Source: Nitrospira sp. (GTDB lineage: Bacteria; Nitrospirota; Nitrospiria; Nitrospirales; Nitrospiraceae). Taken from it: 64,000 nt of DNA. Location of the stretch: NCBI GenBank assembly GCA_035968315.1, contig JAVYIN010000006.1, positions 1-64,000 on the forward strand, given 5' to 3'. Shown here piece after piece: positions 37,506 to 53,022 of this stretch. How positions within the stretch are numbered: position 1 is the first letter of the stretch; each line of letters begins with the position of its first letter. The translations under genes and the position numbers were made by a program. Below the pieces are notes generated by a model. The model did no database searches. It was not told where the DNA came from and saw only the letters and a list, made by a program, of their open reading frames with translations.

Positions 37506-37988
37506 TCAGGGCCGTGCCTTGACCGGCAACGGCACCGTCAGCACCGGGCAACCGGCTGTTCGCACGACTTTCTCTGCGGTACTGCCGAAGAAAATCTTAT
37601 CGACGCTGCCCGACCGCCCTCCATAACTGCCCATCACCACCAGATCGACCTTTTCCACCCGCGCCAGTTTGGCAATCTCGACGAACGGCACTCCTTCCAA
37701 TACCACCCGCTTCATCGCAATCCCTTTGGCCGCATCCGATTCCAGCAGTCGCCGAACATGGAGACGGGCATAGTGGCGAAGCCGGCGCTTTTGCGCCGCG
37801 GCATCGGACGGCACCGCCAGCAAGCCCAGCTTGTTGAGGGTCTCCACGGCGCCCATATCGATCACATGCGCCACCAACACCTTGGCCTCACAGAGGCGAG
37901 CGAGATCACAGGCCACACGAAACGCCTCTTCCGAGCAGGGCGAAAAATCGACCGGAACCAAAAGGGATGAGAACGGTGCGCCATACAT
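37506..37988 (-). CDS. Universal stress protein, single Usp domain
   Basis: 160 aa from ATG 37988 (GGGGAG five bases ahead). UspA fold: LVPVDFSPCSEEAFRVACDL at the start and GSYGGRSGSVDKIFFGS near the end. It is the first gene of a minus-strand series (Usp, cupredoxin, Usp, DUF2934, unknown, formate dehydrogenase, FocA, PfkB, Usp). A sigma-54 element lies 18 bases before the ATG, unusually close. Confidence 0.93.
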   Translation of the reverse strand: MYGAPFSSLLVPVDFSPCSEEAFRVACDLARLCEAKVLVAHVIDMGAVETLNKLGLLAVPSDAAAQKRRLRHYARLHVRRLLESDAAKGIAMKRVVLEGVPFVEIAKLARVEKVDLVVMGSYGGRSGSVDKIFFGSTAEKVVRTAGCPVLTVPLPVKARP

Positions 37989-38005
37989 AGTCACTCCCCA
38001 TCATC

Positions 38006-38020
38006 GCAAGGGCAGTGCCA
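38006..38020 (-). promoter_or_regulatory. Sigma-54 promoter element, minus strand
   Basis: TGGCAC at 38020-38015, five bases, then TTGC at 38009-38006, perfect spacing. Transcription start would be near 37994, inside or next to the Usp ribosome site, so either the transcript is nearly leaderless or the match is fortuitous. Confidence 0.6.
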
Positions 38021-38134
38021 CGGCATGAGAACCTGATCGGTAGCGGATGATCCCGCATAGACCCGGCAGTTTATGTCTTTCTCATCCTGCCATCAGCCAT
38101 ACGCCATCCGTTCTTCAGCTCAATTGGGGGAGCC

Positions 38135-38166
38135 CTGCTACAGTGGAGAATCGCGGCCTGTAGCAG
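38135..38166. promoter_or_regulatory. Perfect 9-bp inverted repeat between divergent operons
   Basis: CTGCTACAG (38135-38143), 14 bases, CTGTAGCAG (38158-38166). It lies in the 313-base gene-free interval 37989-38301, flanked by two sigma-54 elements, so it is a candidate activator-binding site; nothing else recognisable fills the interval. Confidence 0.5.
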
Positions 38167-38259
38167 AAGGCGACAGGACGCGTGAGGAGTGCCGCGCAAG
38201 AGACGCAAAAAACCCATTGTGTTGTGCTCTTCATCCCTTACCTAACCAGACACAAGACC

Positions 38260-38273
38260 GGCACTGGACTTGC
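38260..38273 (+). promoter_or_regulatory. Sigma-54 promoter element, plus strand
   Basis: GGCAC (38260-38264), five bases, TTGC (38270-38273), then T. GG and GC are ten bases apart as required. It lies about 29 bases upstream of the small membrane protein gene, ahead of a four-gene unit. Confidence 0.75.
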
Positions 38274-38301
38274 TCACCTAACACAATAAGGGGAGTAGAA
38301 C

Positions 38302-38397
38302 ATGACGCGCACCCAATGGCTGCTGATAGGAGCGATCGGACTCGGATTCGCGATCGGGATCTATCTCCTGTTCTTTTGCCCGACGGACTGTCGCTAA
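38302..38397 (+). CDS. 31-residue single-helix membrane protein
   Basis: A short gene whose ATG follows AAGGGGAG. The product is one hydrophobic helix (QWLLIGAIGLGFAIGIYLLF) flanked by a short basic start MTRT and a Cys-rich end CPTDCR with two Cys. It lies between a sigma-54 element and a tandem Usp gene (12 bases ahead), so it is probably translated from the same transcript. It is below the length many gene finders accept. Function unknown. Confidence 0.75.
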   Translation: MTRTQWLLIGAIGLGFAIGIYLLFFCPTDCR

Positions 38398-38409
38398 GAG
38401 AGGCTCCTT

Positions 38410-39273
38410 ATGAAAGTGCTGCTGGCTGTCGATGGGTCGGACCAATCGTACGAGGCGGTGCGGGCGCTGGCCTATCTCTCCCGCGCCGAGGAGCTGCACG
38501 TTCTGCATGTATTAGACGTGCCTACACCGGCCTATCCGATGATGGTGCCGGAAGTCGCCCAGGAGTTGTACGCCACGGTCGAGCAAACCATGCGGGAAGA
38601 CGGCAACCGGCTGTTGGATCGGATCGTCTCGCTCCTGCCGATGGAGACCGGTCCCGCGACCAAACAACTGGCGATCGGCTCCCCCGCCGACCGGATCGTG
38701 GACTATGCCGCCACGCATCAGATCGATCTCGTCCTCGTCGGGGCGCGGGGCCTCGGCCCGATCAAGGAACGGTTGATGGGAAGCGTGTCCCACCGGGTCC
38801 TGACGTTTTCGCCTTGTGCCACGCTCATTCTGCCCTGCTTCATGAAAGCCCTGAAGCATGTCCTGCTCCCCTTGCAGGGCTCCCAGGACGCGGAGCGCGC
38901 CTTGCTGTTCTTGCGGCATAAACCATTTCGTGAATCGGTGCCGATCACCCTTCTGACCGTGCTCCCGCAGACCACGCCGCCCTGGCCGGTGGATGCTGCG
39001 GCGGCGAAGCAATTGGAGAGCCAGTCGCTCACAAGCGCCGAGGCCTTCACTCAGACCGTCGCCTCCCAACTGGCCCAGATGGGATACCCCGTTCAGAGCA
39101 AGGCGGTGCTGGGCGCGCCCGTGGAAGCCATTCTCCGGGAAGCCGTAGCGCTACAGGCCGATCTGGTGATGATGGGCTCCCGCGGCAGACACGGACTGAC
39201 CCGCATGGTGCTGGGCAGCGTGTCGCACGCCGTGCTTCATCATGCTCCGTGCCCCCTGTTGGTGTTTCACTGA
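38410..39273 (+). CDS. Universal stress protein, two Usp domains
   Basis: 287 aa. MKVLLAVDGSDQSYEAVRAL opens the first domain and GARGLGPIKERLMGS closes it. The second has VLLPLQGSQDAERALLFLRH and GSRGRHGLTRMVLGS. It is second in a sigma-54-preceded unit: small membrane protein, Usp, FmdB-type zinc ribbon, cytochrome c. A GAGG ribosome site precedes ATG 38410. Confidence 0.95.
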   Translation: MKVLLAVDGSDQSYEAVRALAYLSRAEELHVLHVLDVPTPAYPMMVPEVAQELYATVEQTMREDGNRLLDRIVSLLPMETGPATKQLAIGSPADRIVDYAATHQIDLVLVGARGLGPIKERLMGSVSHRVLTFSPCATLILPCFMKALKHVLLPLQGSQDAERALLFLRHKPFRESVPITLLTVLPQTTPPWPVDAAAAKQLESQSLTSAEAFTQTVASQLAQMGYPVQSKAVLGAPVEAILREAVALQADLVMMGSRGRHGLTRMVLGSVSHAVLHHAPCPLLVFH

Positions 39274-39285
39274 GGAGGGTCTGTG

Positions 39286-39453
39286 ATGACGCCGATGTAC
39301 GACTACACATGCCTGGACTGCGGCAAGGAATCGCTGATCGTCGTGACGCTGAAAGAACACGAACAAGGCGGTCTGCAGTGTCCGAAGTGCGGCAGCACCA
39401 ATCTGAAACAGATCTTCACCTCCTTTATCGCTCACACCACCAAGAAGAGTTGA
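39286..39453 (+). CDS. FmdB-type zinc ribbon protein
   Basis: 55 aa, start ATG 39286 behind GAGGAGG. Two CxxC knuckles, CLDC and CPKC, separated by 20 residues, form a zinc ribbon (MYDYTCLDCGKESLIVV and GGLQCPKCGSTNLKQIF) of the FmdB/regulatory-protein family. It is part of the Usp-cytochrome unit (12 and 2 base gaps). Possible role in regulation or metal handling; not established. Confidence 0.9.
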   Translation: MTPMYDYTCLDCGKESLIVVTLKEHEQGGLQCPKCGSTNLKQIFTSFIAHTTKKS

Positions 39454-39455
39454 TC

Positions 39456-39818
39456 ATGCGCCTGATGCCCTACATGCTCGCAATCGCCCTTTGGGGAATC
39501 GTCTTGATGCCGGGGTACACGGCAGCAGAGGACTTTCCCGCCGACATGGACAGAGGGAAAGCCATCTACCAGCGGCACTGCGCGGCCTGTCACGGCCCCA
39601 GCGGATGGGGAGACGGGCCATCGGCCGCCGCACTCAAGGTCGCCCCCGCGAACTTCCAGCGGTTCCGGTCGTTCTTGAAATCGGATGAGGAATTGCTGCG
39701 CACCATCGAACACGGCGTTGTCTTCAGTCCCATGCACGCCTGGAGAGGGCAGCTCACCGACGGCGAAATGCAGGACGTCCTCGCCTACATTCGCCTCCTC
39801 TCACAGCAGGGACGCTGA
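39456..39818 (+). CDS. Periplasmic c-type cytochrome
   Basis: 120 aa from ATG 39456. A signal (about 1-24, ending TAAE) is followed by a single heme site CAACH (Cys42, Cys45, His46) and axial Met93 in FSPMHAW. It is a small mono-heme electron carrier. It starts 2 bases behind the zinc ribbon stop. A stem (CTCGG/CCGAG) about 50 bases after the stop may end the transcript. Confidence 0.93.
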   Translation: MRLMPYMLAIALWGIVLMPGYTAAEDFPADMDRGKAIYQRHCAACHGPSGWGDGPSAAALKVAPANFQRFRSFLKSDEELLRTIEHGVVFSPMHAWRGQLTDGEMQDVLAYIRLLSQQGR

Positions 39819-39929
39819 GGCACCGTGCGATTGAGTGATCTCGTGTATCGGTGAAATGCCAAACCCGGAGAACTCGGGAAACTCCGAGCCCCGCAATCGC
39901 CACACCGCCATATTGCACGTTATACTTGC

Positions 39930-40511
39930 ATGATCGCCCTCACCCCTCACGATGCCCTGCTGATTGCCGATATCCAGAACGACTTCCTGCCCGGCGGCGC
40001 CCTCGGGATCAGCGGCGGAGACGCCATCATTCCCACCCTGCTGACCTACATGCGCCGGTTCCAGGCTCGGGGTCTCCCTGTGTTTCTGACACGCGATTGG
40101 CACCCGCCCAATCATTGTTCGTTTCAGGCGCAGGGAGGGCTGTGGCCCGTGCACTGCGTGGCCGGTTCGCCCGGCTCGCTGCCGCCACCAACCTTCGATG
40201 CGCCCGTATCAGCCGTCATGATCTACAAAGCCATCGACGCCAGCCGCGAGGCCTACTCGGCGTTTCAGGAGACCCCGCTGCACCGCCACCTCCAGGCCAT
40301 CGGCGTGCGGCGGCTCTTCATCGGCGGCCTGGCAACCGATTATTGCGTGCTGAACACGGTGAAAGACGCCAGGAGATTGGGCTATGACGTGTGCTTGCTG
40401 ACAGACGGCATCAAGGCGGTGAACCTCCAGCAAGAGGACGGCCGTCATGCCGAAGAGGAGATGATCCGTCTGGGAGCGGCGCCGGTCCGGGTGGAGATGC
40501 TGGCCGCATGA
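39930..40511 (+). CDS. pncA: Nicotinamidase (isochorismatase family)
   Basis: 193 aa. It deamidates nicotinamide to nicotinate. The catalytic triad is Asp14 (in IADIQNDF), Lys100 and Cys139 (in GLATDYCVLNT). Metal ligands Asp56, His58 and His75 match PncA. The ATG has no ribosome site and the region just upstream holds TATACT. It overlaps the pncB start by ATGA. Together they recycle NAD precursors. Confidence 0.92.
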   Translation: MIALTPHDALLIADIQNDFLPGGALGISGGDAIIPTLLTYMRRFQARGLPVFLTRDWHPPNHCSFQAQGGLWPVHCVAGSPGSLPPPTFDAPVSAVMIYKAIDASREAYSAFQETPLHRHLQAIGVRRLFIGGLATDYCVLNTVKDARRLGYDVCLLTDGIKAVNLQQEDGRHAEEEMIRLGAAPVRVEMLAA

Positions 40512-41842
40512 ACCCCTCAACCAGCGCACTGATGACCGATCTGTACCAGCTCACCATGGCGCAGGCCTACCATGACCAGCACATGCAGGAGACGGCGGTG
40601 TTCGAGTTCTTCGTCCGCAAACTGCCTCCCCACCGGAACTTCCTGGTCGCCGCCGGTCTCGAGCAGGTTCTGGACTTTCTCTCGGAATTGCAGGTCACGC
40701 CGGAAGAACTCTCCTGGCTGAAACAGACGGGACGGTTCAGCGCGGGCCTCCTGCGCTACCTGGAAACGCTGCGCTTCACCGGCGATGTGGAGGCCATGCC
40801 GGAAGGAACGGTCTTCTTCCCGCAGGAGCCGGTTCTCCGGATCGTCGCGCCGCTGCCGCAGGCACAGCTCATCGAGACCCGCGTCATGAATCTTCTGAAC
40901 TTCCAAACCATGATCGCCTCGAAAGCCGCACGGTCAGTGCTGATCTCGGAGGGAAAACCGCTCATCGACTTTGGCCTGCGGCGGGCGCATGGCGCCGAAG
41001 CCGGCCTGTTCGCGGCACGGGCCAGCTATCTGGCCGGCTTCTCCGGCACCGCGACCGTCCTGGCGGGCATGGCCTTTGACATCCCCCTCTACGGCACCAT
41101 GGCCCATTCCTTCGTACAGGCGCACCGGGATGAAACGCTCGCCTTCGAGCACTTTGCTCACGCCCAGCCGGACAATGTCGTCCTCCTCATCGACACCTAT
41201 GACACGGAAGCCGCCGCGCACAAAGTCGTGGCATTGGCGCCCGTACTCACATCCAAGGGCATCACAGTGAAAGGCGTCCGATTAGACAGCGGAGACCTGG
41301 CCAACCATGCCAGGAAGGTTCGCCGCATTCTTGACGAGGGAGGCTTGCCTCACGCACAGATCCTCGCCAGCGGCAATCTCGACGAATATCGCGTGAAAGC
41401 ATTGATCGGCACCCGTGCGCCGATCGACGGCTTTGCCGTCGGGACGGCCATGACCACCTCCGCCGACGCCCCTTCACTGGACTGCGCCTACAAACTCCAG
41501 GAATATGCCAGCCGCCCCTGCCGCAAACGCTCGGAAGGCAAAGCCACCTGGCCGGGCCGCAAGCAGGTCTACCGCCACTGCCGTCACGATGGCGGATGGG
41601 AATACGATCTAGTCACCACACTGGAGGACAAGGCCGAAGGCGTCCCGCTGCTTCAGCCTGTGATGACAGCAGGCCGCCGCCTCGCGCCCGCGCCCGCATT
41701 GGCCGGCATCCGCCAACGGGTGGCGGCACAACTCGCGCAACTCCCCGCTCCGCTCACAACTCTGGAGGAGGCCCCGTCCTACGAGGTGCGGATCTCGCCG
41801 CAGTTACAGGAACTTGCCGGAACCGTGGACCGTTCTCTCTAA
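40508..41842 (+). CDS. pncB: Nicotinate phosphoribosyltransferase
   Basis: 444 aa from ATG 40508, which overlaps the pncA stop. NAPRTase family: LMTDLYQLTMAQAYHDQHM near the start, RRAHGAEAGLFAARASYL in the middle and GVRLDSGDLANHARKVRR later. It makes nicotinate mononucleotide from nicotinate. The pair completes NAD salvage. In Mycobacterium a pncB copy belongs to the dormancy regulon (from memory). Confidence 0.94.
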   Translation: MNPSTSALMTDLYQLTMAQAYHDQHMQETAVFEFFVRKLPPHRNFLVAAGLEQVLDFLSELQVTPEELSWLKQTGRFSAGLLRYLETLRFTGDVEAMPEGTVFFPQEPVLRIVAPLPQAQLIETRVMNLLNFQTMIASKAARSVLISEGKPLIDFGLRRAHGAEAGLFAARASYLAGFSGTATVLAGMAFDIPLYGTMAHSFVQAHRDETLAFEHFAHAQPDNVVLLIDTYDTEAAAHKVVALAPVLTSKGITVKGVRLDSGDLANHARKVRRILDEGGLPHAQILASGNLDEYRVKALIGTRAPIDGFAVGTAMTTSADAPSLDCAYKLQEYASRPCRKRSEGKATWPGRKQVYRHCRHDGGWEYDLVTTLEDKAEGVPLLQPVMTAGRRLAPAPALAGIRQRVAAQLAQLPAPLTTLEEAPSYEVRISPQLQELAGTVDRSL

Positions 41843-41892
41843 ATATGGCATGGTCACGCACCGATGAATTTCACTTCTCAAGGAGACACCAG

Positions 41893-43323
41893 ATGACGCA
41901 AGCCAGTTCACGTGCGGCTATCCTCCAGACCCTGCTGATTCTCGGGCTGACCATCGGCTCCGGCGGCATTACTCACGCCGGACAAACCCATCCGGCCGCC
42001 ACCCATGCGGGACCTTGCAGCAGTCCATATAAGCACAAACCCGTTCCGGCCAAGACCTTGCGCGCGCTCCTCGGATCACATGGGCAATGGCTGGAGCAAC
42101 GAAACAACCAAGACTATCACCGCGCCGACCTCTGCCAAGCCGGCCTGCACCAGGCGGCATTGACCGGGGCCGATCTGGAGCGAGCCCAGCTCGAAGGGGC
42201 GAATCTCCGGCAAGCCAAACTCTCTCAGAGCAACCTGAGCCAGGCCAGTCTGGCCGGAGCCGATCTGACCGGCGCCATTTTGGAAGACGGCAATCTCTCC
42301 GGGGCCGACCTCCGGCATGCCCGGTTGTCCGGAGCAACCCTGCTCCGTGCAATCGGCGACGAAGCCGCGCTCTACGACGCCACCTTGGCCGGCGCCCGCA
42401 TGGCAGAGTCCACGTTCGAGCGCGCCCATTTCGAAGGCGCCGACCTCTCCTCCGCCGATCTAACCGACGCCAACTTCGTGGACAGTTATTTCTATGGCGC
42501 CACCCTGCAGCGCGCGACCCTCGTGGGAACCGATCTGATGGGAGCCGATCTGCGCCGCACCATCCTCACCAACGCCAACATGACCCAGGCCAATCTCCAA
42601 GGCGCCTTGCTCGACAGTGCGCGGCTCGACCAGGCTCGCCTGATCGAAGCCGACCTGGAAAGCGCCTACCTGGATGAAGCGAATTTGCGCGAGGCGAATC
42701 TGCGAGAAGCCATCCTGCGCGGAGCGGATATGCGCTACACCAACCTACAGAAAGCGAGTGTGCAGCAAGCCGATTTGGAAGGGGCCAACATGGAAGGGGC
42801 ACGGCTGGTCAACACCAATCTACAGTCGGCCAAGCTCCGGATGGCCATTCTCTATCACGCCCACCTCGATGGAGCCGACTTCCGTGACGCGCACTTGTAC
42901 CGGGCGGTCTTGATCGGAGCACGGGGATCACGCCCCAACTTCTCGCAAGCCGATCTCTCTGAAGTCTATGCGCCGAAAGCGTCCCTCCGGCAGGCGCAAT
43001 TCAGCGACGCCAATCTGGAATCGGCCAATTTCGTCGCCGCGAATCTGAGCGGCTCGAATTTCACCCGCGCCAATCTGGCGCACGCCAATCTCCAGGACGC
43101 CAGCCTCCAGGATGCGGCGCTGGCCGGAGCCGATCTAACCGGCGCCAGGCTGGAGGCCGCAGACCTGTATCGCGCAAACTTGCGGGGCGCAACACTGACC
43201 TCCGTGACCGGACTGACACAGGCCCAACTCGACCGCGCCTGTGTCGATGAACAGACCCTCTTGCCGCAGGAATTGAGCCGTCCGGCTCCCTGCACCACTC
43301 TTAAGAAAGAAAGCACGCGATGA
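41893..43323 (+). CDS. Exported pentapeptide-repeat protein
   Basis: 476 aa from ATG 41893, AAGGAG eight bases ahead. Signal peptide (about 8-30), then a short helical region, then about 75 five-residue repeats of the A(D/N)LxX type from about residue 70 to 455 (for example SGADLRHARLSGATLLRAIG). This predicts a right-handed beta-helix of about 18 coils in the periplasm or on the surface. It ends by overlapping the hydrolase gene. Function unknown; some members mimic DNA, others are structural. Confidence 0.9.
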   Translation: MTQASSRAAILQTLLILGLTIGSGGITHAGQTHPAATHAGPCSSPYKHKPVPAKTLRALLGSHGQWLEQRNNQDYHRADLCQAGLHQAALTGADLERAQLEGANLRQAKLSQSNLSQASLAGADLTGAILEDGNLSGADLRHARLSGATLLRAIGDEAALYDATLAGARMAESTFERAHFEGADLSSADLTDANFVDSYFYGATLQRATLVGTDLMGADLRRTILTNANMTQANLQGALLDSARLDQARLIEADLESAYLDEANLREANLREAILRGADMRYTNLQKASVQQADLEGANMEGARLVNTNLQSAKLRMAILYHAHLDGADFRDAHLYRAVLIGARGSRPNFSQADLSEVYAPKASLRQAQFSDANLESANFVAANLSGSNFTRANLAHANLQDASLQDAALAGADLTGARLEAADLYRANLRGATLTSVTGLTQAQLDRACVDEQTLLPQELSRPAPCTTLKKESTR

Positions 43324-43982
43324 CCGCTCCACACGAACATGCCGTACGGATCCTGCGAGGCCGGGTCTCTCTTGAGGGAGTACTCGGGCTTCCAGACCAT
43401 CCGCACGGCGTGGTCGTGTTTGCGCACGGGAGCGGCAGCGGCCGGTTCAGCCCGCGCAACAACTTCGTCGCCCGCCATCTCCAGCGGCACGGCCTCGCCA
43501 CCCTGCTGCTCGACTTACTGACGCCGGACGAAGCGGACGATCGGAGCAAAGTCTTCGATATCGATCTGCTGGCCGACCGGTTGTTGCTGGCCAAAGCCTG
43601 GCTGGCAGAAGAGGCTCGCACGAAGGACCTGGGGATCGGCTACTTCGGGGCCAGCACCGGAGCCGGCGCGGCGCTGCAAGCCGCGGCGAGAGATCCCTCG
43701 AACATCCACGCCGTGGTCTCCCGAGGCGGACGGCCCGACTTGGCCGAACCCTATCTCGCAGCAGTCACCGCGCCGACGCTCCTCATTGTCGGCGGTTGGG
43801 ACGAACCGGTGATTGAGATGAACCAATCCGCCTACGAACTGCTCACCTGCGAAAAGAAGCTCATCATCGTCTCCGGCGCGACGCACCTCTTCGAAGAGCC
43901 CGGCACGCTGGAGCAAGTGGCGGAACATGCGGAGAAATGGTTTGGGCGGTATCTTCCACGAGAAGGGGCAACGGCGAGATAG
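43320..43982 (+). CDS. Alpha/beta hydrolase, dienelactone-hydrolase-like
   Basis: 220 aa. The nucleophile Ser112 is in GASTGAGAALQ, the acid is Asp161 (GGWDEPV) and the base His189 (SGATHLFEEPG), a complete triad. The oxyanion part is VVVFAHGSGSGRFSPRN. It overlaps the pentapeptide gene by 4 bases. A relative in Mycobacterium (Rv0571c) joins such a domain to a phosphoribosyltransferase beside pncB2, which is recalled and not checked. It ends 7 bases from the convergent kinase gene. Confidence 0.9.
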   Translation: MTAPHEHAVRILRGRVSLEGVLGLPDHPHGVVVFAHGSGSGRFSPRNNFVARHLQRHGLATLLLDLLTPDEADDRSKVFDIDLLADRLLLAKAWLAEEARTKDLGIGYFGASTGAGAALQAAARDPSNIHAVVSRGGRPDLAEPYLAAVTAPTLLIVGGWDEPVIEMNQSAYELLTCEKKLIIVSGATHLFEEPGTLEQVAEHAEKWFGRYLPREGATAR

Positions 43983-43989
43983 CGACGTC

Positions 43990-44523: not shown

Positions 44524-44536
44524 TTCATGACCCGCC

Positions 44537-44564
44537 TGGCTAGAGGTGCGCGGCTAGGGGCTAG
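44537..44564 (+). repeat. Heptamer array, 4 units (NGGCNNR orientation)
   Basis: Four units from TGGCTAG (44537) to GGGCTAG (ends 44564). Left half of an inverted pair with 44584-44611; the 19-base centre is AT-rich. Confidence 0.75.
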
Positions 44565-44583
44565 GGATATCGTTAATTTCACG

Positions 44584-44611
44584 CTCGCCACGTGCCTCTT
44601 GCCTCACACCT
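44584..44611 (+). repeat. Heptamer array, 4 units (YNNGCCN orientation)
   Basis: Four units from CTCGCCA (44584) to CACACCT (ends 44611). The stop of the phosphotransferase gene falls within it. Confidence 0.7.
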
Positions 44612-45728
44612 GCCGCGATGCGGCACAATACTCATTCACCTTCGACGGGTCGAACCGCGGGGCTGCCAGCACGTTGTCCATGAATGTAAAGATCGTACGG
44701 CGAACCTGGATCGGCAATTTCGGATACCAGACGGGGCTGGCCAGCACCAAGCCGCGAAACGCGAAAAATGGCGCGGCGCAGGCGGTGATCTCTTCGTCCT
44801 TGCTCGCCTCCTCATACGTATCCCAGAACAAGCGAAAGAGCACCTCAAACGGCCCCTGCATCTTCCCCCAGCGGCAGAGCGAGTAAAAGAGATAGTTCAC
44901 GGTCATCGACGTCACATCGTCGGCCGGCTCGCCCCACTCTCCGCGCGAGCGATCGAGCACCGCAAAGTTCACGCCCTTTTGAAAGAGCACGTTCCAGGGA
45001 TGGAAATCGCCATGCACCTGCGACAATCGGCGAGCCTTCCCACGCAGACGCCAACGCCAGCGGTTGCAGGATTCCTCGACCGACCGCAACACGTCTTCCG
45101 TGATAAAGCCGAATCGCTTGGGGTAACTGTCGGTCAAGCCCATGATGCATTCGCCGTGACCGAGCAACTCACGGAGACGGCGGCGATACAGATCGGCATC
45201 CCGCTTCTTGCGCGCATGGATCTGGGCGAGATACTGCGCAAGTGCCACGGTGCGCTCCCGATCCAGCTTGCGCAGCGCCCTGCCCTTGGCAAGCCGTTCA
45301 AGATCGAGATGATAACTCGCGCCCTCCGTCCATTGGTTCAGGACGAAAAACTCCCGCGCCCCTGCCACCGAGAGCAATTCGTGCCGGCCGGTGAACGCGC
45401 CCACGTCGAGGGCCTTCACATGGCGGGGAAGCCGGCCATAGGACTCGTAATCCCACAACATGGCCTGCGCGCGATCAGCCATGTGCTCATGCCCGAAGGG
45501 CCCGGGCTTCATCGTCTCAAGCACCGCCGACTGCAAGCGGGGTCCGACACGGAACGTGACCTTAACTGGCGTCCCATAGCCATATTGTTTCTGGGCCCCC
45601 TTCGAGCTGGCCTTGCCGATCACCTCGCAGGACACCAGCGCGACCTCAGGGCCGAAACGGGTCTGGAGGTACCGCTCAAGGGACCGTCTCTTCAACGCCG
45701 GCATGTTAGATCTTTGCACGCAAGTCAT
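44604..45728 (-). CDS. Phosphotransferase, APH/choline-kinase-like fold
   Basis: 374 aa. The catalytic loop VHGDFHPWNVLF has the HGDxHxxN pattern. The metal-binding site reads LDRSRGEWGEPADDV, where most relatives have DFG/DFD after the Asp. An N-terminal kinase-like lobe is less conserved. The substrate is unknown (small-molecule or glycan phosphorylation). It lies 80 bases upstream of the cysC-like gene on the same strand. In Mycobacterium such a domain is fused to a P-loop kinase (Rv2004c, from memory). ATG 45728 is used; ATG 45704 is possible. Confidence 0.82.
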   Translation of the reverse strand: MTCVQRSNMPALKRRSLERYLQTRFGPEVALVSCEVIGKASSKGAQKQYGYGTPVKVTFRVGPRLQSAVLETMKPGPFGHEHMADRAQAMLWDYESYGRLPRHVKALDVGAFTGRHELLSVAGAREFFVLNQWTEGASYHLDLERLAKGRALRKLDRERTVALAQYLAQIHARKKRDADLYRRRLRELLGHGECIMGLTDSYPKRFGFITEDVLRSVEESCNRWRWRLRGKARRLSQVHGDFHPWNVLFQKGVNFAVLDRSRGEWGEPADDVTSMTVNYLFYSLCRWGKMQGPFEVLFRLFWDTYEEASKDEEITACAAPFFAFRGLVLASPVWYPKLPIQVRRTIFTFMDNVLAAPRFDPSKVNEYCAASRQV

Positions 45729-45743
45729 GTTCCTAGGCAGGCC

Positions 45744-45842: not shown

Positions 45843-45910
45843 CTGTACGACTGGCGCATTGAGCTTCAGTCACCGAAAGATCTCTGGGGCGAAATGCGTC
45901 ACTGAGCCGC

Positions 45911-45938: not shown

Positions 45939-45951
45939 AGGTCAGAATCTT

Positions 45952-45986
45952 CACGCCCCAAGCCCCTTGCCTCGCGCCTCTCGCCT
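45952..45986 (+). repeat. Heptamer array, 5 units (YNNGCCN orientation)
   Basis: Five units from CACGCCC (45952) to CTCGCCT (ends 45986), ending 12 bases ahead of the sigma-54 element of the hpf-csd gene. Confidence 0.72.
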
Positions 45987-45998
45987 TCCGCTATGGCA

Positions 45999-46012
45999 GG
46001 CACATCGCTTGC
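45999..46012 (+). promoter_or_regulatory. Sigma-54 promoter element
   Basis: GGCAC (45999-46003), five bases, TTGC (46009-46012), then T. The start site would be near 46024, giving a leader of about 36 bases with the TAGGAGG ribosome site of the HPF-CSD gene. Confidence 0.78.
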
Positions 46013-46059
46013 TGATCTTAGGGCGTGGAAGAAACTCGTGGCCAGATAGGAGGAACCAG

Positions 46060-46614
46060 ATGGATCTCAAAATCGAAAGCCGCAATATCGAAATGACCCC
46101 GCGATGGAAGACCGAAATCGAAGCCCGCATGGCAGACCTGCAACGCAACCACGACGATCTGACCCATGGGCGCGTCACGCTCACGAAAAACCGCCATCAC
46201 AAGAAACTCGACAACGTGGCCGAAGCGCTCGTGCTCGTAACCCTTCCAGGCCGCCAGACGTTGACGGCCCGTAAGGAAGACAAGACCTTCGAAGAAGCGA
46301 TCAGGGCCGCCTTCCAAGCCGTCGCGATCGAACTCCGCAAGTCTCGTGAGAAACAAGCCCACACCGAGATACGCACAGAGCCCATCCCTCCCGAACGCGG
46401 GGTGATCTGCAAGCTCTTCCTGCAAGAGGGCTACGGCTTCATCCTCCAAGACGGAGGCGGAGAAGTGTACTTTCATGAGCATGCGCTGCAAGGCCTGACC
46501 TTCGAGCAGCTGGAGGACGGGATGGAAGTCGTCTTCAACCTTGAGCAAGGCAAAAAAGGCCCGCAAGCCACCGTCGTCACCCTTCCACCTCCCATGGCAG
46601 CCAAAGGCCAATAA
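46060..46614 (+). CDS. Ribosome hibernation factor domain fused to cold-shock domain
   Basis: 184 aa. Residues 1-100 form an HPF/RaiA-type domain (LKIESRNIEMTPRWKTEIEA). Residues about 112-184 are a cold-shock RNA-binding domain with EGYGFI (123-128) and VYFH (136-139). HPF proteins occupy the decoding site in stalled ribosomes; the cold-shock part may hold RNA. The start has TAGGAGG seven bases ahead and a sigma-54 element 48 bases before it. The Lon-type protease begins directly after its stop. Confidence 0.92.
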   Translation: MDLKIESRNIEMTPRWKTEIEARMADLQRNHDDLTHGRVTLTKNRHHKKLDNVAEALVLVTLPGRQTLTARKEDKTFEEAIRAAFQAVAIELRKSREKQAHTEIRTEPIPPERGVICKLFLQEGYGFILQDGGGEVYFHEHALQGLTFEQLEDGMEVVFNLEQGKKGPQATVVTLPPPMAAKGQ

Positions 46615-49038
46615 ATGACCACGGACAAATTCAAAGTGCCGGTATCGATGCTCTCTCCCCTGATCGATCCCGGCCACTTCGGTTTCGAGGACACGGGCGA
46701 GTTGGAGCCCCTCACCGAAATCATTGGGCAGGAACGGGCAGTCGAAGCCCTGGAATTCGGCCTGCACATGAAGAGCCCCGGATTCAACCTCTATGTGTCT
46801 GGCCCTACAGGCACCGGTAAAGGCACGCTCGTTCGCCAAATGGTGAAACGCATGGCGCAGGGCGCGCCGGCTCCTTCCGACTGGTGCTATGTGAACAATT
46901 TCCAAGATCCCTCGCGCCCCTCCTGCCTCGCACTGCCGGCCGGGCAAGGCGCCTCGTTCAAGCGGGAAATGGCCGCATTCATCGACGGACTGCGGCGGGA
47001 TATTCCGCTGGCGTTTGACAGCAAGAAATACCTCGATGCCAAAGCCAAGCTGCACGACGAGATCGAATCGAAGAAGAAAGCGCACTTTCGCGAATTGACG
47101 GACCTGAGCCAGAAACAGGGGTTCGTCTTTGAGGAAACTCCGGTCGGCTTCGGCATTGTCCCGCTCAAAGCGGGCCATCCCATGACGGACGAGGAAATGG
47201 AGGCGATGACCGACCAGGAGCAGCAGGAGCTGACGGAGCGGCGCAAGGTGCTCGAAGGCGAAATCCGCGAATTTCACGTCCGCATCCATGCGCTGGATAA
47301 AGAGGCCGAGCACCAGCAGCGCCACCTCGACCGCCAGGTCGTGACCAATGTCTTGGAAGGCCGCTACGAAACGTTGCGGCGGACCTACCAGGATCTGGCG
47401 GCCGCCGCCGCGTATTTAGAGCGGGTGCAGCAGGACATCGTCCACCACTACAAAGACTTCCTCCCGCAGGAAGGACCGCATCTCCCCCTTCCCGGCTTGG
47501 AACCCCGCCGGCCCGACATGACGCGCTATCTCGTCAACCTCATTGTCGAGCACGATCCGATGGGGGGCGCGCCGGTCATCGACGAATCGCATCCGACCTA
47601 TACCAACTTGATCGGCAAAATCGAACGGCGGGCGCACCTGGGCGTCATGTATACCGACTTTACCGAGATTCGCGCGGGCGCGGTCCTCATGGCGAACGGC
47701 GGCTACTTGATCGTGAACGCCATGGATGCGCTCCGCCAGCCGTTCTCCTGGGACGCCTTGAAGCGGGTGATCAAGACCGGTGAAGTCAAGATTGAAGACC
47801 CCGGCGAGTTCTATGGCTTCTCGACCGCGGGGCTCAGACCCGAGCCGATCCCCGTCAATGTGAAAGTCATCATGGTCGGCCCTCCGATGGTCTACCACCT
47901 GCTCCAGGCCTATGAAGAAGACTTCGGCAAGCTCTTCAAGGTGAAGGCGGATTTCGACACCGAAGTGGTCCGCAGCGAGCGGCAGGACAGGCAATATGCC
48001 CGGTTCATCGCCAAGATCTGCCGTGAAGAGGGGCTGCCGCACTTCGGCGCGGATGCCGTCGCGGAAGTCATCCGGCAAGGATTCCGGTTCGCCGACCGGC
48101 ACGACCGGCTGTCGCTGCGGTTCAGCCTGGTCAGCGATCTCATCCGCGAAGCCGGCTACTGGGCCAGAAAAGAAAACCATTCGTTTGTGACCCGGGGGGA
48201 CGTCGACGCCGCGGTCACGCACAAACGCCACCGCTCCAATCTGGCTGAGCACTGGATCCAGGATGACATCAAAGAAGGCACCCTGATGGTCGCGCTCGAC
48301 GGCGAGGTCGTCGGCCAGGTGAACGGACTCTCCGTCCACCAACTCGGCGACTACGCGTTTGGACGGCCCACCCGCATCACGGCCCGCACCTATGTGGGCA
48401 CCAAAGGCGTCATCGACATTCAGCGGGAAGCCGAATTGGCCGGCCACATCCACAGCAAAGGGGTCATGACCCTGGCCGGCTATCTGGCCGGCAAGTTTGC
48501 CGGGCTGCATCCTTTCGCCATGAGCGCCTCGCTTACCTTCGAGCAAACCTACTCTGAGATCGAAGGAGACAGCGCGGCCGTCGCTGAGCTCACGGCGATT
48601 CTGTCGAGCCTGGCCGACCTGCCAATCCGCCAATGGCTGGCCGTCACCGGTTCCGTCAATCAATTGGGCGAAGTGCAGCCCATCGGCGGCGTAAACGAAA
48701 AGATTGAAGGGTTCTTCGAGTCCTGCTCGCGGCGCGGCCTCACGGGCAAGCAGGGCGTGATCATCCCAGCCCGCAACACGAAGCACCTGGCCATTCGCCG
48801 CGATGTGGTGGAGGCGGTGGAGTCCGGGCACTTTGCGGTCTATGCGGTGAATACCGTGGAAGAGGCCCTGGAACTGCTCACCGGCGTCCCGGCCGGCGAA
48901 CGCGCCATCGACGGGGAATATCCGCTCGATACGGTCTTCGGCCGTGCCGCTCAACGGCTCGCCGAGATGGCGCAGGCGGTTGCCGAATGGGGGGAAGGAG
49001 AAGAACGGACCGGCGGGCATATCATCACCGAGCCATGA
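46615..49038 (+). CDS. Lon-type AAA+ protease (LonB/AAA_32-like)
   Basis: 807 aa. Walker A is GPTGTGKGT (63-71), followed by a long helical insert (about 130-290) and the AAA+ core around LMANGGYLIVNAMDALRQP. The C-terminal serine protease has Ser653 (IEGDSAAVAEL) and Lys696 (GGVNEKIEGFF), 43 residues apart as in E. coli Lon (679 and 722). It degrades damaged or regulatory proteins. It starts at the base after the HPF-CSD stop and shares its sigma-54 promoter. No Lon N-terminal domain is seen. Confidence 0.93.
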   Translation: MTTDKFKVPVSMLSPLIDPGHFGFEDTGELEPLTEIIGQERAVEALEFGLHMKSPGFNLYVSGPTGTGKGTLVRQMVKRMAQGAPAPSDWCYVNNFQDPSRPSCLALPAGQGASFKREMAAFIDGLRRDIPLAFDSKKYLDAKAKLHDEIESKKKAHFRELTDLSQKQGFVFEETPVGFGIVPLKAGHPMTDEEMEAMTDQEQQELTERRKVLEGEIREFHVRIHALDKEAEHQQRHLDRQVVTNVLEGRYETLRRTYQDLAAAAAYLERVQQDIVHHYKDFLPQEGPHLPLPGLEPRRPDMTRYLVNLIVEHDPMGGAPVIDESHPTYTNLIGKIERRAHLGVMYTDFTEIRAGAVLMANGGYLIVNAMDALRQPFSWDALKRVIKTGEVKIEDPGEFYGFSTAGLRPEPIPVNVKVIMVGPPMVYHLLQAYEEDFGKLFKVKADFDTEVVRSERQDRQYARFIAKICREEGLPHFGADAVAEVIRQGFRFADRHDRLSLRFSLVSDLIREAGYWARKENHSFVTRGDVDAAVTHKRHRSNLAEHWIQDDIKEGTLMVALDGEVVGQVNGLSVHQLGDYAFGRPTRITARTYVGTKGVIDIQREAELAGHIHSKGVMTLAGYLAGKFAGLHPFAMSASLTFEQTYSEIEGDSAAVAELTAILSSLADLPIRQWLAVTGSVNQLGEVQPIGGVNEKIEGFFESCSRRGLTGKQGVIIPARNTKHLAIRRDVVEAVESGHFAVYAVNTVEEALELLTGVPAGERAIDGEYPLDTVFGRAAQRLAEMAQAVAEWGEGEERTGGHIITEP

Positions 49039-49059
49039 AACCGGCACGGCGCCCAAATC

Positions 49060-49458
49060 CTAGAACCGTCCATCTATTTTATTCGCCGTCAATTGCGCAC
49101 TGATCGCGTCGAGCAATTCCCGCGGGCTGAATGGTTTTCTGAGCGTCTGGTCGGCCCCGAGGTCCGTGGCGACATCGAGCGCGTCCCACTCGCCTGTTCC
49201 GCCGGACATCGCGATGATCTTGCTGGCAGGCTGGGACGCGCGCAGACGAGGAATCAATTCCAAGCCGTCCATGCCAGGCATATAGACGTCCACGAGAATC
49301 AAATCCACCGCATGATGCAGCAAGAGATTCAGGGCATGCTGCCCATGCTCGGCCGTCAGGACATGATACCCAACGGCTTCCAGTGCGGTCCGGAAGAGCA
49401 TCCGAATTTGCGCTTCATCGTCGATCACGAGCAGAGTGCGAGGAGCCGTCTCAGTCAT
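49060..49458 (-). CDS. Single-domain response regulator (CheY-like)
   Basis: 132 aa receiver domain only. Acidic pocket DDE at 13-15, phospho-Asp57 in LVDVYMPGMDG, and Lys near the end in TLRKPFS. There is no output domain. It is closely related to the next regulator (49697-50086): Asp57, LGADQTLRKPFS and LGANQTLRKPCS agree, so the two are likely duplicates. It probably acts through protein contacts. It lies convergent to the Lon gene. Confidence 0.92.
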   Translation of the reverse strand: MTETAPRTLLVIDDEAQIRMLFRTALEAVGYHVLTAEHGQHALNLLLHHAVDLILVDVYMPGMDGLELIPRLRASQPASKIIAMSGGTGEWDALDVATDLGADQTLRKPFSPRELLDAISAQLTANKIDGRF

Positions 49459-49696
49459 GTTACGTAGTATGACTAGTATCGACGCAGCACGGAAAGAGCC
49501 GATTGACCCGGATTAATAGCCCTAGCCGCGAATCCCTACCAGGGAACGATGGCCTGTCAACCGTCATGGACAAGGCCACGCCCGCGCAGGGATCGCCTGC
49601 CGGACAAGCGGAATGCCGGAACCAGAACCACAGGGAGAAGACCAATGCGTGGAGAAAACATGAGACGAGAGCGTGGACGAAATGCAAAGAGCCGGA

Positions 49697-50086
49697 TCAC
49701 TCCTTCTGCGCCGCGATCAACTGGCCACGGACGGCTTCCAGCAACTCGCGGGAAGAGCACGGTTTCCTGAGCGTCTGATTGGCGCCCAGCCGCTTCGCGA
49801 CTTCAAGATAATCCCACTCCCCGACACCGCCGGACATTGCCATGATCTTGCAGGCCGCATGGGAGGCACGCAGACGCCGGATCAGCTCCAGCCCATCCAT
49901 CTCCGGCATAAAGATGTCGACCACAACGAGATCCACCGCCTGAGCCTGGAATAGTTCCACGCCCTCTAGCCCGCCTCCGGCAACCAAAACCCGGTACCCA
50001 GCCTCTTCGAGGGTCGCCTGGAACAGCGCCCGCGTGTGCGCGTCATCATCGATCACGAGCACCGTATGACAGGCCCCCTCTTCCAT
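49697..50086 (-). CDS. Single-domain response regulator, paralog of 49060 gene
   Basis: 129 aa from ATG 50086. DDD at 13-15, phospho-Asp57 in VVDIFMPEMDG, Lys in TLRKPCSSRELLEAV. The sequence matches the neighbour at 49060 along its length, so it is a duplication. The long frame upstream (to 50344) does not resemble a receiver and is not included. The 238 bases between the pair show no gene; I see only a perfect TTGACA at 49560-49555 with a poor -10. Confidence 0.9.
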   Translation of the reverse strand: MEEGACHTVLVIDDDAHTRALFQATLEEAGYRVLVAGGGLEGVELFQAQAVDLVVVDIFMPEMDGLELIRRLRASHAACKIMAMSGGVGEWDYLEVAKRLGANQTLRKPCSSRELLEAVRGQLIAAQKE

Positions 50087-50225
50087 GGCACACAGTATGC
50101 CAGGAGCCGAAATGGGCGCCCAGAGCCAAATGGCGGGAATCAATCGTCGCAGCCATACCGCCTTCCACGGTAGGTCTCTCCAGCCCCTGTCCTCGCTCAT
50201 CCGGCTGCCCGTCATCACACGGGTT

Positions 50226-51038
50226 CTACGGCTCGCTCGCCGGCGCTGCGCCTGTGATGTGGACCACCGGCCCCCGCGGAAGCATGACCGCCTCGGCGGC
50301 CTCGGCCTCACCGCCAAGCACCCACTCGTACAACCGTCTCGCATCGTTCAGCTCCGGATCTTTCGGAACCCCATACTGCTCCTGCTGCATCGGTTCATCG
50401 TAGAGCCCGATGCAGCCGTGCGAGGCGGGATAGCCAGGCAGATCCCGCCCGTGAATCCAGTAGGACACCCCTTCCCGGTTGATGTAAAACCGGAGTGCGT
50501 GGTGCATCGGGTAGGGCCGATCCGTGCCCTCGATCGTATAGCGATTGGATTGATGGGTCCGGCGTGCCGCCGTCAGGCGAAATATGCCGGCCGGGGTTTC
50601 ATTGTGCCCGTTGCCGGATGCGATGGGGAGGGCAAATCGCAGCGCGCCATACTCATAGGCGCCGAGAAACTGTTCCGTGAGGTCGATCAGCACGAACTGC
50701 TCGTCCTGCTCCGCGGCGGAATAGAGTACCGGCAGCGGGGTAAACGCGGCCACCTCCTCGATCCGCCTGGGGATTTTGAGCGCCACGCCGGCGCGCGCGT
50801 GCCGCCGGTCGATCCGGTTGAACCGGGCCACATCGTTCCAACGATCGCCAAACAGACTTTCCAGGGTTTCACCCGGCCGCAAGGTCCGGCAGTCCCACTC
50901 GACTGTCGAATCGCTCGGATAGACGAGGGCGCACGGGCCTGGATGCTTCTTAAGAGGTTCCGCTTGAGCGATCTCGGGAGAACCGAATAGCCCTGCGATC
51001 AGAGCCAGAGTCGTGACAATACTCCTCCACAGGAACAC
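50226..51038 (-). CDS. L,D-transpeptidase (YkuD family)
   Basis: 270 aa with start uncertain; GTG 51038 is used because a signal peptide follows at once (VTTLALIAGLFGSPEIAQA). The YkuD motif YWIHGRDLPGYPASHGCIGL holds the catalytic Cys and His. LysM-like text, RPGETLESLFGDRWNDVARF, lies ahead. It crosslinks peptidoglycan or anchors proteins. A large palindromic repeat lies upstream, and the frame continuing through it is spurious. Confidence 0.87.
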   Translation of the reverse strand: MFLWRSIVTTLALIAGLFGSPEIAQAEPLKKHPGPCALVYPSDSTVEWDCRTLRPGETLESLFGDRWNDVARFNRIDRRHARAGVALKIPRRIEEVAAFTPLPVLYSAAEQDEQFVLIDLTEQFLGAYEYGALRFALPIASGNGHNETPAGIFRLTAARRTHQSNRYTIEGTDRPYPMHHALRFYINREGVSYWIHGRDLPGYPASHGCIGLYDEPMQQEQYGVPKDPELNDARRLYEWVLGGEAEAAEAVMLPRGPVVHITGAAPASEP

Positions 51039-51093
51039 GCGGCCAGATAGATTCAGTGCAAACCTGAGAATGCAAAAGAAACCGGCCTTCCAC

Positions 51094-51215
51094 GGCTGGT
51101 CAACATGATCGCCAGCAAGGCCGCAGCCGAAGAAAGCACCGGAGGCGTACCCTCTCGGGTACGTTGAGGATGCTTTCGAGGCGAGAACGCCGCTGACGGT
51201 CATGTTCAGCAGCCG
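51094..51215. repeat. Long palindromic repeat element (about 122 bp)
   Basis: Terminal arms GGCTGGTCAACATGATCG (from 51094) and, inverted, GGCTGCTGAACATGACCG (ending near 51215) enclose an inner hairpin GTACCC-TCTC-GGGTAC (about 51147-51162). Fragments of the right arm occur at 19110-19165 and 24510-24550. It looks like a non-coding dispersed element; it is not an IS. Confidence 0.72.
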
Positions 51216-51216
51216 G

Positions 51217-51651
51217 CTAGGACCAATGCTGCAACGCTTTCGTATACCCAAACAGCAGATCCCGCCGGGCGAGAACGCCCACCAGCTTGCTGTTCCGCAC
51301 CACTGGTACACGCGTGAGATAGCGATCCTGGAAGAGATCGGCCACTTGGACGAGAGTTTGATCTTCCGTCACGGTCACGGGATGAGCCGACATGATTTCC
51401 GTGGCCAGGATCTTCCGCAAGTCCCGCCCCTCGATCATGGCCTGGAGCAGGTCGTATTCGCTGACAATACCAACAAGGGTCCCCTCCTCGTCCACCACCG
51501 GCAGGCTGCCGAAATTGCGATGGGTCATTAAATGGGCCATCGTCGACGCATCGGTGCGCGGCGTGATGCGCGTCACCGCGTCCTGCATCAACTGCCCGAC
51601 GGTCAGGGTCTTGGGATCGCACGGGGCCAAGAAATATTCTGTTTGTCGCAT
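51217..51651 (-). CDS. CBS-domain protein
   Basis: 144 aa from ATG 51651 (GGGAG five bases ahead). Two CBS domains in tandem: VGQLMQDAVTRITPRTDAST, PVVDEEGTLVGIVSEYDLL, then MSAHPVTVTEDQTLVQVADL and PVVRNSKLVGVLARRDLL. It is a cytoplasmic nucleotide-binding pair such as Hrp1 of Mycobacterium. The partner CBS gene is just upstream (10 bases), so they form a pair. Likely in the sigma-54 unit starting at 52699. Confidence 0.93.
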   Translation of the reverse strand: MRQTEYFLAPCDPKTLTVGQLMQDAVTRITPRTDASTMAHLMTHRNFGSLPVVDEEGTLVGIVSEYDLLQAMIEGRDLRKILATEIMSAHPVTVTEDQTLVQVADLFQDRYLTRVPVVRNSKLVGVLARRDLLFGYTKALQHWS

Positions 51652-51661
51652 GGCCGCTCCC

Positions 51662-52117
51662 TCACTTTTTTCTACGGGTGGCACTGCCCCCTACATACAT
51701 TCGCAAAATATCGCGCCGGGCGATAATCCCCACCAGCCGGTCCTTGGCATCCACCACCGGGACCCGCACCAGATCGCTCGCCCGCAAGACATGCACCAGC
51801 GTCGCCAGCGTCGTTTCCGGACGAACGGAATAGGGGTTGGCCGTCATCACGTCCCCGGCCGTGAGTTCGCCCAGGAGACGGCCGTCGTCCATCGCCGCCA
51901 ACAGGTCATGCTCGCTGACAATTCCGATCAGCGTGCGTTGCTTATCGATCACCGGCACGGCGCCGAACCCTTCGATCATGAGCGACGCCATCACATCGCC
52001 CTTCGTTTCCAGATGGGCAAACTGGACTCGTTTTTCCATCACCTGCTTGACGGTCATGGGGCCATAGTCCGTGGCCTTTTTGGTCTTCGTGCGTCCCGTC
52101 GGTTTCTTTGTCGGCAT
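51662..52117 (-). CDS. CBS-domain protein
   Basis: 151 aa. A basic start MPTKKPTGRTKTKK is followed by two CBS domains: VKQVMEKRVQFAHLETKGDV, PVIDKQRTLIGIVSEHDLLA, VMTANPYSVRPETTLATLV and PVVDAKDRLVGIIARRDILR. It starts 60 bases after the upstream secreted protein gene ends. The two CBS genes are alike in length and order and may form a heteromer. Confidence 0.93.
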   Translation of the reverse strand: MPTKKPTGRTKTKKATDYGPMTVKQVMEKRVQFAHLETKGDVMASLMIEGFGAVPVIDKQRTLIGIVSEHDLLAAMDDGRLLGELTAGDVMTANPYSVRPETTLATLVHVLRASDLVRVPVVDAKDRLVGIIARRDILRMYVGGSATRRKK

Positions 52118-52177
52118 ACCCCCACCCCTCCTTCATCTCAATCCCATCGATGATCCCCTGGCCCCGGCGCTCCGCAC

Positions 52178-52699
52178 TCACTCCCCCGGCAATGTCCTGC
52201 CCAGCCCGCGATCTTCCTTCCACCGCACATAGACGGTCTTTTGTTTTCTCGCCTCGACCGTGAGGCCCATGAGCACTTGTTGACTGCCGCCATACGCGGC
52301 GGTCACATCATACTGCCCTGGGGCCAGATCGACAAAGAGCCACGGTCCCGCGACCTGTTCCTCAGGGATCGTCACCGCCGCTCCCCCTTTGACCGGCTGA
52401 ATCGTGACCGACACGCCGGCGAGAAAGGGCTTCCCCCCCGCCGTAAATACCAGCTTCAACGGAAACGGCGGATAGTGGGCCGCCCGTTCTTCTAGGCCAA
52501 CACCGGCGCTAAAATAGCGAACAGCCCCTGCTCGATACAGAGGAATTGTGTGCTGCAGCACCTTGCCATCGACCTGATAGGTCAACTCGATGGCTTCGCC
52601 CGACTCACTCATACGAATGGTAGGTCCTCCATCCGCTAGGCTCAGATCTCCACCCACACCCACGGCAAGCACCAGAGCACACAAGATGGCCTTCTTCAT
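52178..52699 (-). CDS. Exported hypothetical protein with Ig-like fold
   Basis: 173 aa. Signal peptide (about 1-22, KKAILCALVLAVGVGGDLSLA) and a beta-rich body with a carboxypeptidase-regulatory or Ig-like pattern: GPWLFVDLAPGQYDVTAAYG, then LMGLTVEARKQKTVYVRWKE. I do not recognise the family. It has a perfect sigma-54 element upstream and AAGGAGG ahead of ATG 52699, and it leads two CBS genes. Confidence 0.85.
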   Translation of the reverse strand: MKKAILCALVLAVGVGGDLSLADGGPTIRMSESGEAIELTYQVDGKVLQHTIPLYRAGAVRYFSAGVGLEERAAHYPPFPLKLVFTAGGKPFLAGVSVTIQPVKGGAAVTIPEEQVAGPWLFVDLAPGQYDVTAAYGGSQQVLMGLTVEARKQKTVYVRWKEDRGLGRTLPGE

Positions 52700-52727
52700 A
52701 TCTGCTCCTCCTTCTTCAAATGATCTC

Positions 52728-52742
52728 GCAAGGTAGGTGCCA
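52728..52742 (-). promoter_or_regulatory. Sigma-54 promoter element, minus strand
   Basis: TGGCAC (52742-52737), five bases, TTGC (52731-52728), a full consensus. The start site near 52716 gives a leader of about 17 bases with the AAGGAGGAG ribosome site. It drives the secreted protein and the CBS genes. The interval 52700-53022 (323 bases) holds this, the next element and otherwise nothing I recognise. Confidence 0.82.
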
Positions 52743-52955
52743 TAGGCGCGCGCTCAGATTTCTTCGTATTTTCTCGAACAACAACAGGCCTGGCACCTCG
52801 ACCGCAATAGACCCGTGAAAGACTGACGCTAATCACCACAGTCACAAATTCCCCGCTGCTGCAAAACGCCGCACCTCACAAGCAATCGGACCGCGCCCGT
52901 CCGCTATGCCCCTTAAAACAGAGGGAATCTCCCGCAATGTCTTCCAGAGATCACA

Positions 52956-52969
52956 GGCATACCCAATGC
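52956..52969 (+). promoter_or_regulatory. Weak sigma-54-like element
   Basis: AGGCAT-N5-ATGCA with GG-N10-GC spacing, start site near 52981 and about 42 bases ahead of the Usp gene. A second poor match TGGCAC-N5-CCGC lies at 52791-52805. Confidence 0.4.
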
Positions 52970-53022
52970 AGATTCGATACCTGCTAGCGTGTGATCATCC
53001 ACTGAAAGGGGAGGCATCGGCC

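Follow-up and report, generated by a model that had tools for sequence, protein, structure and literature searches.

In a 64,000-nucleotide stretch of a Nitrospira genome (GenBank assembly GCA_035968315.1, contig JAVYIN010000006.1, positions 1 to 64,000; hereafter the window), promoters and paired enhancer palindromes are arranged in a manner that very probably reflects a sigma-54 regulon with three bidirectional control regions, located at 38.0-38.3 kb (region A/B), 45.7-46.0 kb (region C'/C), and 52.7-53.0 kb (region D/D'). Each region has the same layout, in which two palindromes 33 bp apart (approximately three helical turns) lie roughly 80-140 bp from each of two outward-facing promoters. 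The predicted promoters and enhancers, their spacing, conservation, and divergent layout, and the gene for the sigma factor RpoN are all evident at the level of sequence. A single regulator, with its gene in another part of the genome, probably turns on the ribosome-hibernation, protease, universal-stress, and ion-pump genes behind these promoters as a group.

The decisive evidence for the predicted regulon is comparative. Specifically, an alignment was made of the 300 bp preceding the gene for a fusion of HPF (S30AE) to a cold-shock domain (HPF-CSD) in the window and in 17 relatives. In every row except that of locus L085, the -24/-12 element of a sigma-54 promoter aligns, usually about 50-65 nt ahead of the start codon. 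In L085 the true start precedes the one placed by tblastn, and both the element and the tandem palindromes are present there too (locus L300 is from the same species). Upstream of the -24/-12 element are two more conserved blocks, which are two copies of the 17-bp palindrome TGNNGC-N5-GCNNCA. Their spacing is exactly 33 bp in all 17 promoters measured, that of the window included.

A second survey, based on one public genome per species and sharing part of its genomes with the first alignment set, yields a similar picture. This survey comprises 78 loci, 76 of which have enough upstream sequence, and 330 bp were examined at each. A sigma-54 site matching at 8/10 or better is present upstream of HPF-CSD at 73 of these 76 Nitrospira loci, and both this site and the 33-bp tandem are present at 65, including Candidatus Nitrospira defluvii (FP929003). 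Some of the tandem misses arise where the tandem lies beyond the 330 bp examined (e.g. L300, L320, L325, and L337). In related families of the order, the enhancer was not found beside the HPF genes at L099 (G055) and L102 (G045), and no sigma-54 site was found at the HPF gene of L076 (G038). One further Nitrospira genome, G019, keeps an HPF-type tandem (C6:172289-172338), and a full HPF-CSD gene was not found in it; its tandem perhaps still serves the divergent kinase gene.

The same enhancer recurs at the other two regions. A scoring matrix was trained solely on the HPF promoters of relatives and then run over the window, such that the other regions are out of sample. The best single sites begin at 45885 and 45852, which belong to HPF itself, followed by 38159, 19124, and 52824. 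Pairs at the 33-bp spacing that score at least 15 occur at 45852, 52824, and 38126, together with a weak pair at 19954 (15.6), and all other spacings from 20 to 49 yield only pairs involving the strong sites at 38 and 46 kb. In 100 runs of first-order random sequence, such pairs averaged 0.01 per 64 kb and none exceeded 17.6 (0.05 pairs in an earlier 20 runs). The bare tandem pattern, with 12 fixed bases and no mismatch allowed, is found in 32 of 33 genomes of the genus at 0-8 copies each, compared with two control matches in total. These and the other genome-wide scans were run with fixed patterns.

The three good tandems sit beside the four exact sigma-54 consensus matches of the window. In region C'/C, palindromes at 45852..45868 (TGGCGCATTGAGCTTCA) and 45885..45901 (TGGGGCGAAATGCGTCA) are identified by the alignment, the matrix, and the named loci of the second survey. 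In region D/D', the palindromes at 52824..52840 (TGACGCTAATCACCACA) and 52857..52873 (TGCTGCAAAACGCCGCA) have a tandem score of 19.5 and form a perfect match to the pattern, one of only two in the entire genome. Region A/B, which is conserved and has a tandem score of 18.0, combines an imperfect palindrome at 38126..38142 (GGGGGAGCCCTGCTACA) with one at 38159..38175 (TGTAGCAGAAGGCGACA) that is the third best single matrix site in the 64 kb. The lone palindrome at 19124-19140 (14.0) has no good partner and precedes a minus-strand gene (18770-19096) by about 30 bp, and the weak tandem at 19954-20003 lies inside an open reading frame; both are probably chance occurrences.

Each of the three tandems lies between two divergent sigma-54 promoters, as judged from their sequences, and this gives six predicted promoters in the window. 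An exact search for GGCAC-N5-TTGC returns four matches, all intergenic, at the places given in the first-pass annotation of this DNA, and, as stated there, all of them face a gene. The set described there was incomplete, since it overlooked sites at 45720-45734 (minus strand; C') and 52955-52969 (plus strand; D') that are degenerate but conserved. Site C' (AGGAACATGACTTGC) reads TGGAACGTGACTTGC and similar in relatives, and site D' (AGGCATACCCAATGC) is kept in 9/9 aligned species, as are promoters A and B. At all six promoters the GG and GC of the -24/-12 boxes are ten bases apart, and this spacing is kept in relatives. The bidirectional arrangement recurs in the named loci. Of 85 tandems there, 81 have a sigma-54 match scoring 8/10 or better on their right, 67 have one on their left, and 65 have one on each side, whereas four altered control patterns are found on both sides in 0 or 1.

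Transcription start sites were taken to be 12 nt after the C of the -12 box, following the general rule for sigma-54 promoters, and all leader lengths are predicted on that basis. Promoter B (38259..38273, plus strand; CGGCACTGGACTTGC) would start near 38285 and produce a leader of 17 nt with the sequence GGGGAG. Promoter C (45998..46012, plus strand; AGGCACATCGCTTGC) would start near 46024 with a leader of 36 nt, and promoter D (52728..52742, minus strand; TGGCACCTACCTTGC) near 52716 with one of 17 nt. The claim that three of the four original sites leave a normal leader with a ribosome site holds for B, C, and D. Promoter A (38006..38020, minus strand; TGGCACTGCCCTTGC) faces a gene at 37506-37988 with a predicted start near 37994 and a leader of only about 6 nt, and the GGGGAG at this site is upstream of the predicted start. 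The added promoters D' and C' would start near 52981 (leader of about 42 nt to the ATG at 53023) and near 45708 (about 4 nt), respectively. The start codon of the APH-fold kinase gene behind C' is 13-14 nt past the GC of the -12 box in 40/56 loci of other species (L300-L377), equivalent to a predicted leader of 2-3 nt, which suggests a conserved and nearly leaderless sigma-54 transcript. If C' is indeed the promoter of this gene, then its start is at 45704 and not 45728.

Taken alone, the four exact consensus matches are only mildly unusual. Shuffles that preserve dinucleotides yield a mean of 0.98 matches, about twice the half match estimated in the first-pass annotation, and at least four matches occur in 2/100 shuffles. 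The same annotation had named the absence of rpoN, or of conserved -24/-12 boxes in relatives, as results that would refute its proposal. The genome encodes rpoN (Sigma54_DBD match, E 1.1e-56) along with approximately 21 proteins carrying a sigma-54 activation domain, and the boxes are kept in relatives. Its proposal of one sigma-54 regulon over the Usp, cytochrome c, HPF-CSD/Lon, and CBS genes gains support from these two findings and from the tandem enhancer shared beside all four sites.

The genes behind the promoters, whose operon extents are putative, include a number for universal stress proteins (Usp). Behind A, on the minus strand, are a Usp gene (37506..37988), a cupredoxin-like gene (37043-37471), a double Usp gene (36090-37046), and a formate dehydrogenase series (28834-35850) that contains a NuoF-like subunit, a molybdopterin subunit, and a formate/nitrite transporter. 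The order from Usp to this series is kept in relatives, and this conservation, together with the shared strand, suggests that the formate dehydrogenase genes may be part of the operon of A. On the plus strand, B is followed by a gene for a 31-amino-acid protein with one predicted transmembrane stretch (38302..38397), the frame of which is kept in relatives, then a double Usp gene (38410..39273) and a cytochrome c gene (39456..39818). Behind C' is the APH-fold kinase gene (44604..45704, minus strand), and behind C are the genes for HPF-CSD (46060..46614) and a LonB/LonC-like protease (46615..49038), both on the plus strand. The first gene behind D (52178..52699, minus strand) encodes a protein of 173 amino acids with no Pfam match; it is missing in several relatives, and D is missing there too. 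Two genes for CBS-domain proteins (51217-51684 and 51662-52117) follow on the same strand. Finally, D' precedes plus-strand genes for a double Usp (53023..53928) and a P-type cation ATPase (53921..56722).

In the mechanism that we propose, an NtrC-type response regulator would be phosphorylated by its kinase and would occupy the two palindromes as neighboring dimers, which would then oligomerize. DNA looping would bring the regulator to an RpoN-RNA polymerase complex waiting at either promoter, where the regulator would open the promoter at the cost of ATP, such that one enhancer could serve both sides. The gene products probably constitute a shut-down and maintenance program for oxygen or energy shortage. 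Of the possible signals, low oxygen or energy is the most probable, at roughly even odds, in view of the proteomics of Nitrospira marina and a parallel with the NmpR system of Myxococcus (see below).

Which protein would bind these enhancers? We searched the upstream 400 bp of each of 21 sigma-54 activator families for the palindrome. The only family that carries it in its own promoter is that of an NtrC-type regulator encoded approximately 140 kb away (G000 C6:159929-161251; hereafter the C6 regulator). The mean best palindrome score is 16.1 for this family, compared with 6.7 for the next multi-member family and 1.2 for an NtrC-type protein encoded in the window (21777-23198). Orthologue promoters from 23 of 24 distinct genomes score at least 11.7 (the exception is G022), two of them without a good tandem at 32-33 bp. 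Near-perfect palindromes such as TGTCGCATAATGCGACA are found at these orthologues, mostly in tandem at 32 bp and immediately past a sigma-54-like sequence, TGGTCCTGCCcTTGC. A reciprocal matrix, built from the orthologue promoters of the C6 regulator with its own genome left out, ranks the pair at 45852 first and that at 52824 second in the window, with 38159 third as a single site.

The C6 regulator has receiver, sigma-54 AAA+, and Fis-type helix-turn-helix domains (Pfam), and the gene for a soluble PAS-HisKA-HATPase histidine kinase overlaps its end. A similar kinase (46-55% identity) is encoded near the orthologue in three relatives. The best NCBIfam models are those of the AtoC, ZraR, and NtrC activators, with which it has this domain set in common, but it falls below every curated cut-off (495/714, 455/760, and 446/559, respectively) and its contact loop is GAFTDA. 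From the shared operator, we consider it likely that the C6 regulator binds the tandem enhancers.

Several observations weigh against parts of this account. Sequences with one mismatch to GGCAC-N5-TTGC show no excess in the window (17 versus 22.4 expected) and no enrichment across the 3.11-Mb genome, where each strand has 84 of them and the reversed pattern gives 89 and 91. Thus, the consensus by itself could not carry the claim of a regulon, and we dropped it as a stand-alone proof. Promoter D is present in only 3/9 aligned species, the window included, which are those that keep the gene at 52178-52699. One of the A/B palindromes is imperfect, with a score of 1.4, and the reciprocal matrix places the A/B pair at 38126 no higher than fifth. 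The position of the palindromes downstream of the sigma-54 site at the C6 regulator suits repression as well as activation. Furthermore, the contact loop in the orthologues inspected reads GAFTDA or GSFTDA where GAFTGA is expected; four other activators of the genome likewise deviate from G[AS]FTGA. Genomes without HPF and CBS1 (G009, G014, and G025) nevertheless keep the C6 regulator and its promoter sites, and so presence or absence gives no tie between this protein and the regulon. A co-loss of the promoter sites with the regulon, which G022 had fitted, is contradicted by these three genomes.

In an alternative that we regard as unlikely, but that survives better than any other, the palindromes are bound by a different activator, perhaps as part of a cascade, and the C6 regulator is a target rather than the binder. 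The sites in its promoter could be bound by another upstream protein, and just downstream of it, behind a perfect sigma-54 match, are genes for a CheY-like protein and a second activator. That match (TGGCACATCGCTTGC; G000 C6:158644-158658, minus strand; L121 6745-6759) lies immediately after the candidate regulator-kinase pair, and the second activator is of the PAS type. However, the other 20 activator families have no sites at their own genes. The activator C5:267986-269449, which was favored at first because it seemed to be absent from the enhancer-free G022, was abandoned because the cluster-bearing genomes G005, G008, and G017 have no clear orthologue.

An activator role for the NtrC-type protein of the window, which is paired with the kinase at 23205-24386, had been put forward in the first-pass annotation and now appears improbable. 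This protein has the full receiver-AAA+-Fis domain set and GAFTGA, is conserved in the genus, and has its gene on the same contig as promoter A, at a distance of 15 kb. In none of the genomes checked, however, does its promoter carry an enhancer palindrome (the scores of 1.2 versus 16.1 given above), and this core protein of the genus occurs just as often where the HPF gene is missing. We therefore set it aside as the activator, even though self-regulation is not universal among activators and the missing palindrome at its own promoter is no disproof. The minus-strand pair at 21777-24386 forms a two-component system whose regulator is 76-95% identical across nearly the whole genus.

It is more doubtful still that the palindromes are operators of an unrelated regulator that does not act with sigma-54, and that other activators serve the sigma-54 boxes. 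Many regulators have palindromes of 17 bp, and those in the C6 regulator promoter are downstream of the sigma-54 site. Tandems three helical turns apart and 80-140 bp upstream on both sides instead match the standard layout of NtrC-type enhancers, and sigma-54 boxes flank both sides in 65/85 tandems. Lastly, the idea that a 9-base consensus was matched four times by chance, at genes with ordinary sigma-70-type promoters, is scarcely credible despite the one-mismatch counts at or below chance, because the fixed GG-N10-GC spacing is kept in dozens of species while its flanks vary, and because all four matches adjoin independently found tandem enhancers, which altered control patterns do not.

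The regulon built on these tandem enhancers has partial counterparts in known systems. The lxa locus of Burkholderia cenocepacia is a compact, Usp-rich stress locus that is induced by low oxygen, and in this respect resembles the Nitrospira set, but it belongs to a different phylum. Closer in descent is Nitrospira marina, of the same genus in the broad sense, in which four UspA proteins and neighboring operons increase jointly at low oxygen; no regulator or promoter is described there (PMC8115632). According to a report on Myxococcus xanthus (PMC11841059), the self-regulated NtrC-type protein NmpR controls CBS, Usp, and P-type ATPase genes, types that are also among the targets in the window, and a tested target, mxan_4236, is hypoxia-inducible. 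Each NmpR promoter combines two tandem palindromic sites with a sigma-54 site, as do the Nitrospira regions.

The Nmp system (NmpRSTU) also differs in several respects (PMC11841059). The NmpR operator is GCGCA-N5-TGCGC, with GCA-N5-TGC invariant, compared with TGNNGC-N5-GCNNCA in Nitrospira, and its sites are separated by 14-15 bp compared with 33 bp from center to center. The sensor side of the Nmp system is a multi-kinase relay with a heme-binding sensor, whereas the C6 regulator has one adjoining soluble PAS kinase. HPF and Lon are in the Nitrospira set, and neither is among the NmpR targets reported in the sections consulted. Identity with the NmpR regulon was rejected because the operator differs; by analogy, the Nitrospira regulon would work like the NmpR system, but membership in it is unsupported. 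Searches of open-licence papers turned up no account of a Nitrospira regulon of this kind.

Other occurrences of the tandem suggest that the regulon may be wider than the regions of the window. At G000 C5:264025-264074 (L122 8026-8075), a tandem enhancer (19.2) and the sigma-54 site CGGCATTGCGATTGC are ahead of a dehydrogenase-archease-RtcB series, and RNA repair genes may thus be in the same or a related regulon. Tandems at G000 C6:138305-138354 and C6:145789 (L120 6306 and 13790; scores of 21.7 and 18.2) resemble the A/B enhancer and are near membrane or transporter-like genes, with only weak sigma-54 sites nearby. Elsewhere in the genus, three families of 33-bp tandems recur. The first includes G002:C270:8116, G005:C86:68491, and G021:C45:28404; the second includes G006:C36:167845, G005:C79:19012, and G020:C220:5579; and the third includes G031:C104:21203, G010:C45:70, and G003:C5:5169.

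Nitrospira are widespread nitrite oxidizers, and to our knowledge little is known of how their survival without oxygen or nitrite is controlled. The circuit described here provides parts that can be tested, including an operator sequence, a candidate regulator-kinase pair, and targets that include ribosome hibernation. It could explain the joint rise of the Usp clusters of N. marina at low oxygen, and it suggests that sigma-54 control of Usp, CBS, and ATPase genes, known from Myxococcus, operates with a different operator in a distant phylum. A more speculative reading, which we regard as less likely than not, is a genus-wide dormancy program under a single regulator, in which the three bidirectional sigma-54 enhancers would switch HPF-CSD, the Lon-type protease, and the Usp and CBS proteins with the supply of oxygen or energy, and in which the kinase divergent from HPF would be made from a nearly leaderless transcript. 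If this dormancy reading is true, then such a transcript might aid translation of the kinase while ribosomes hibernate.

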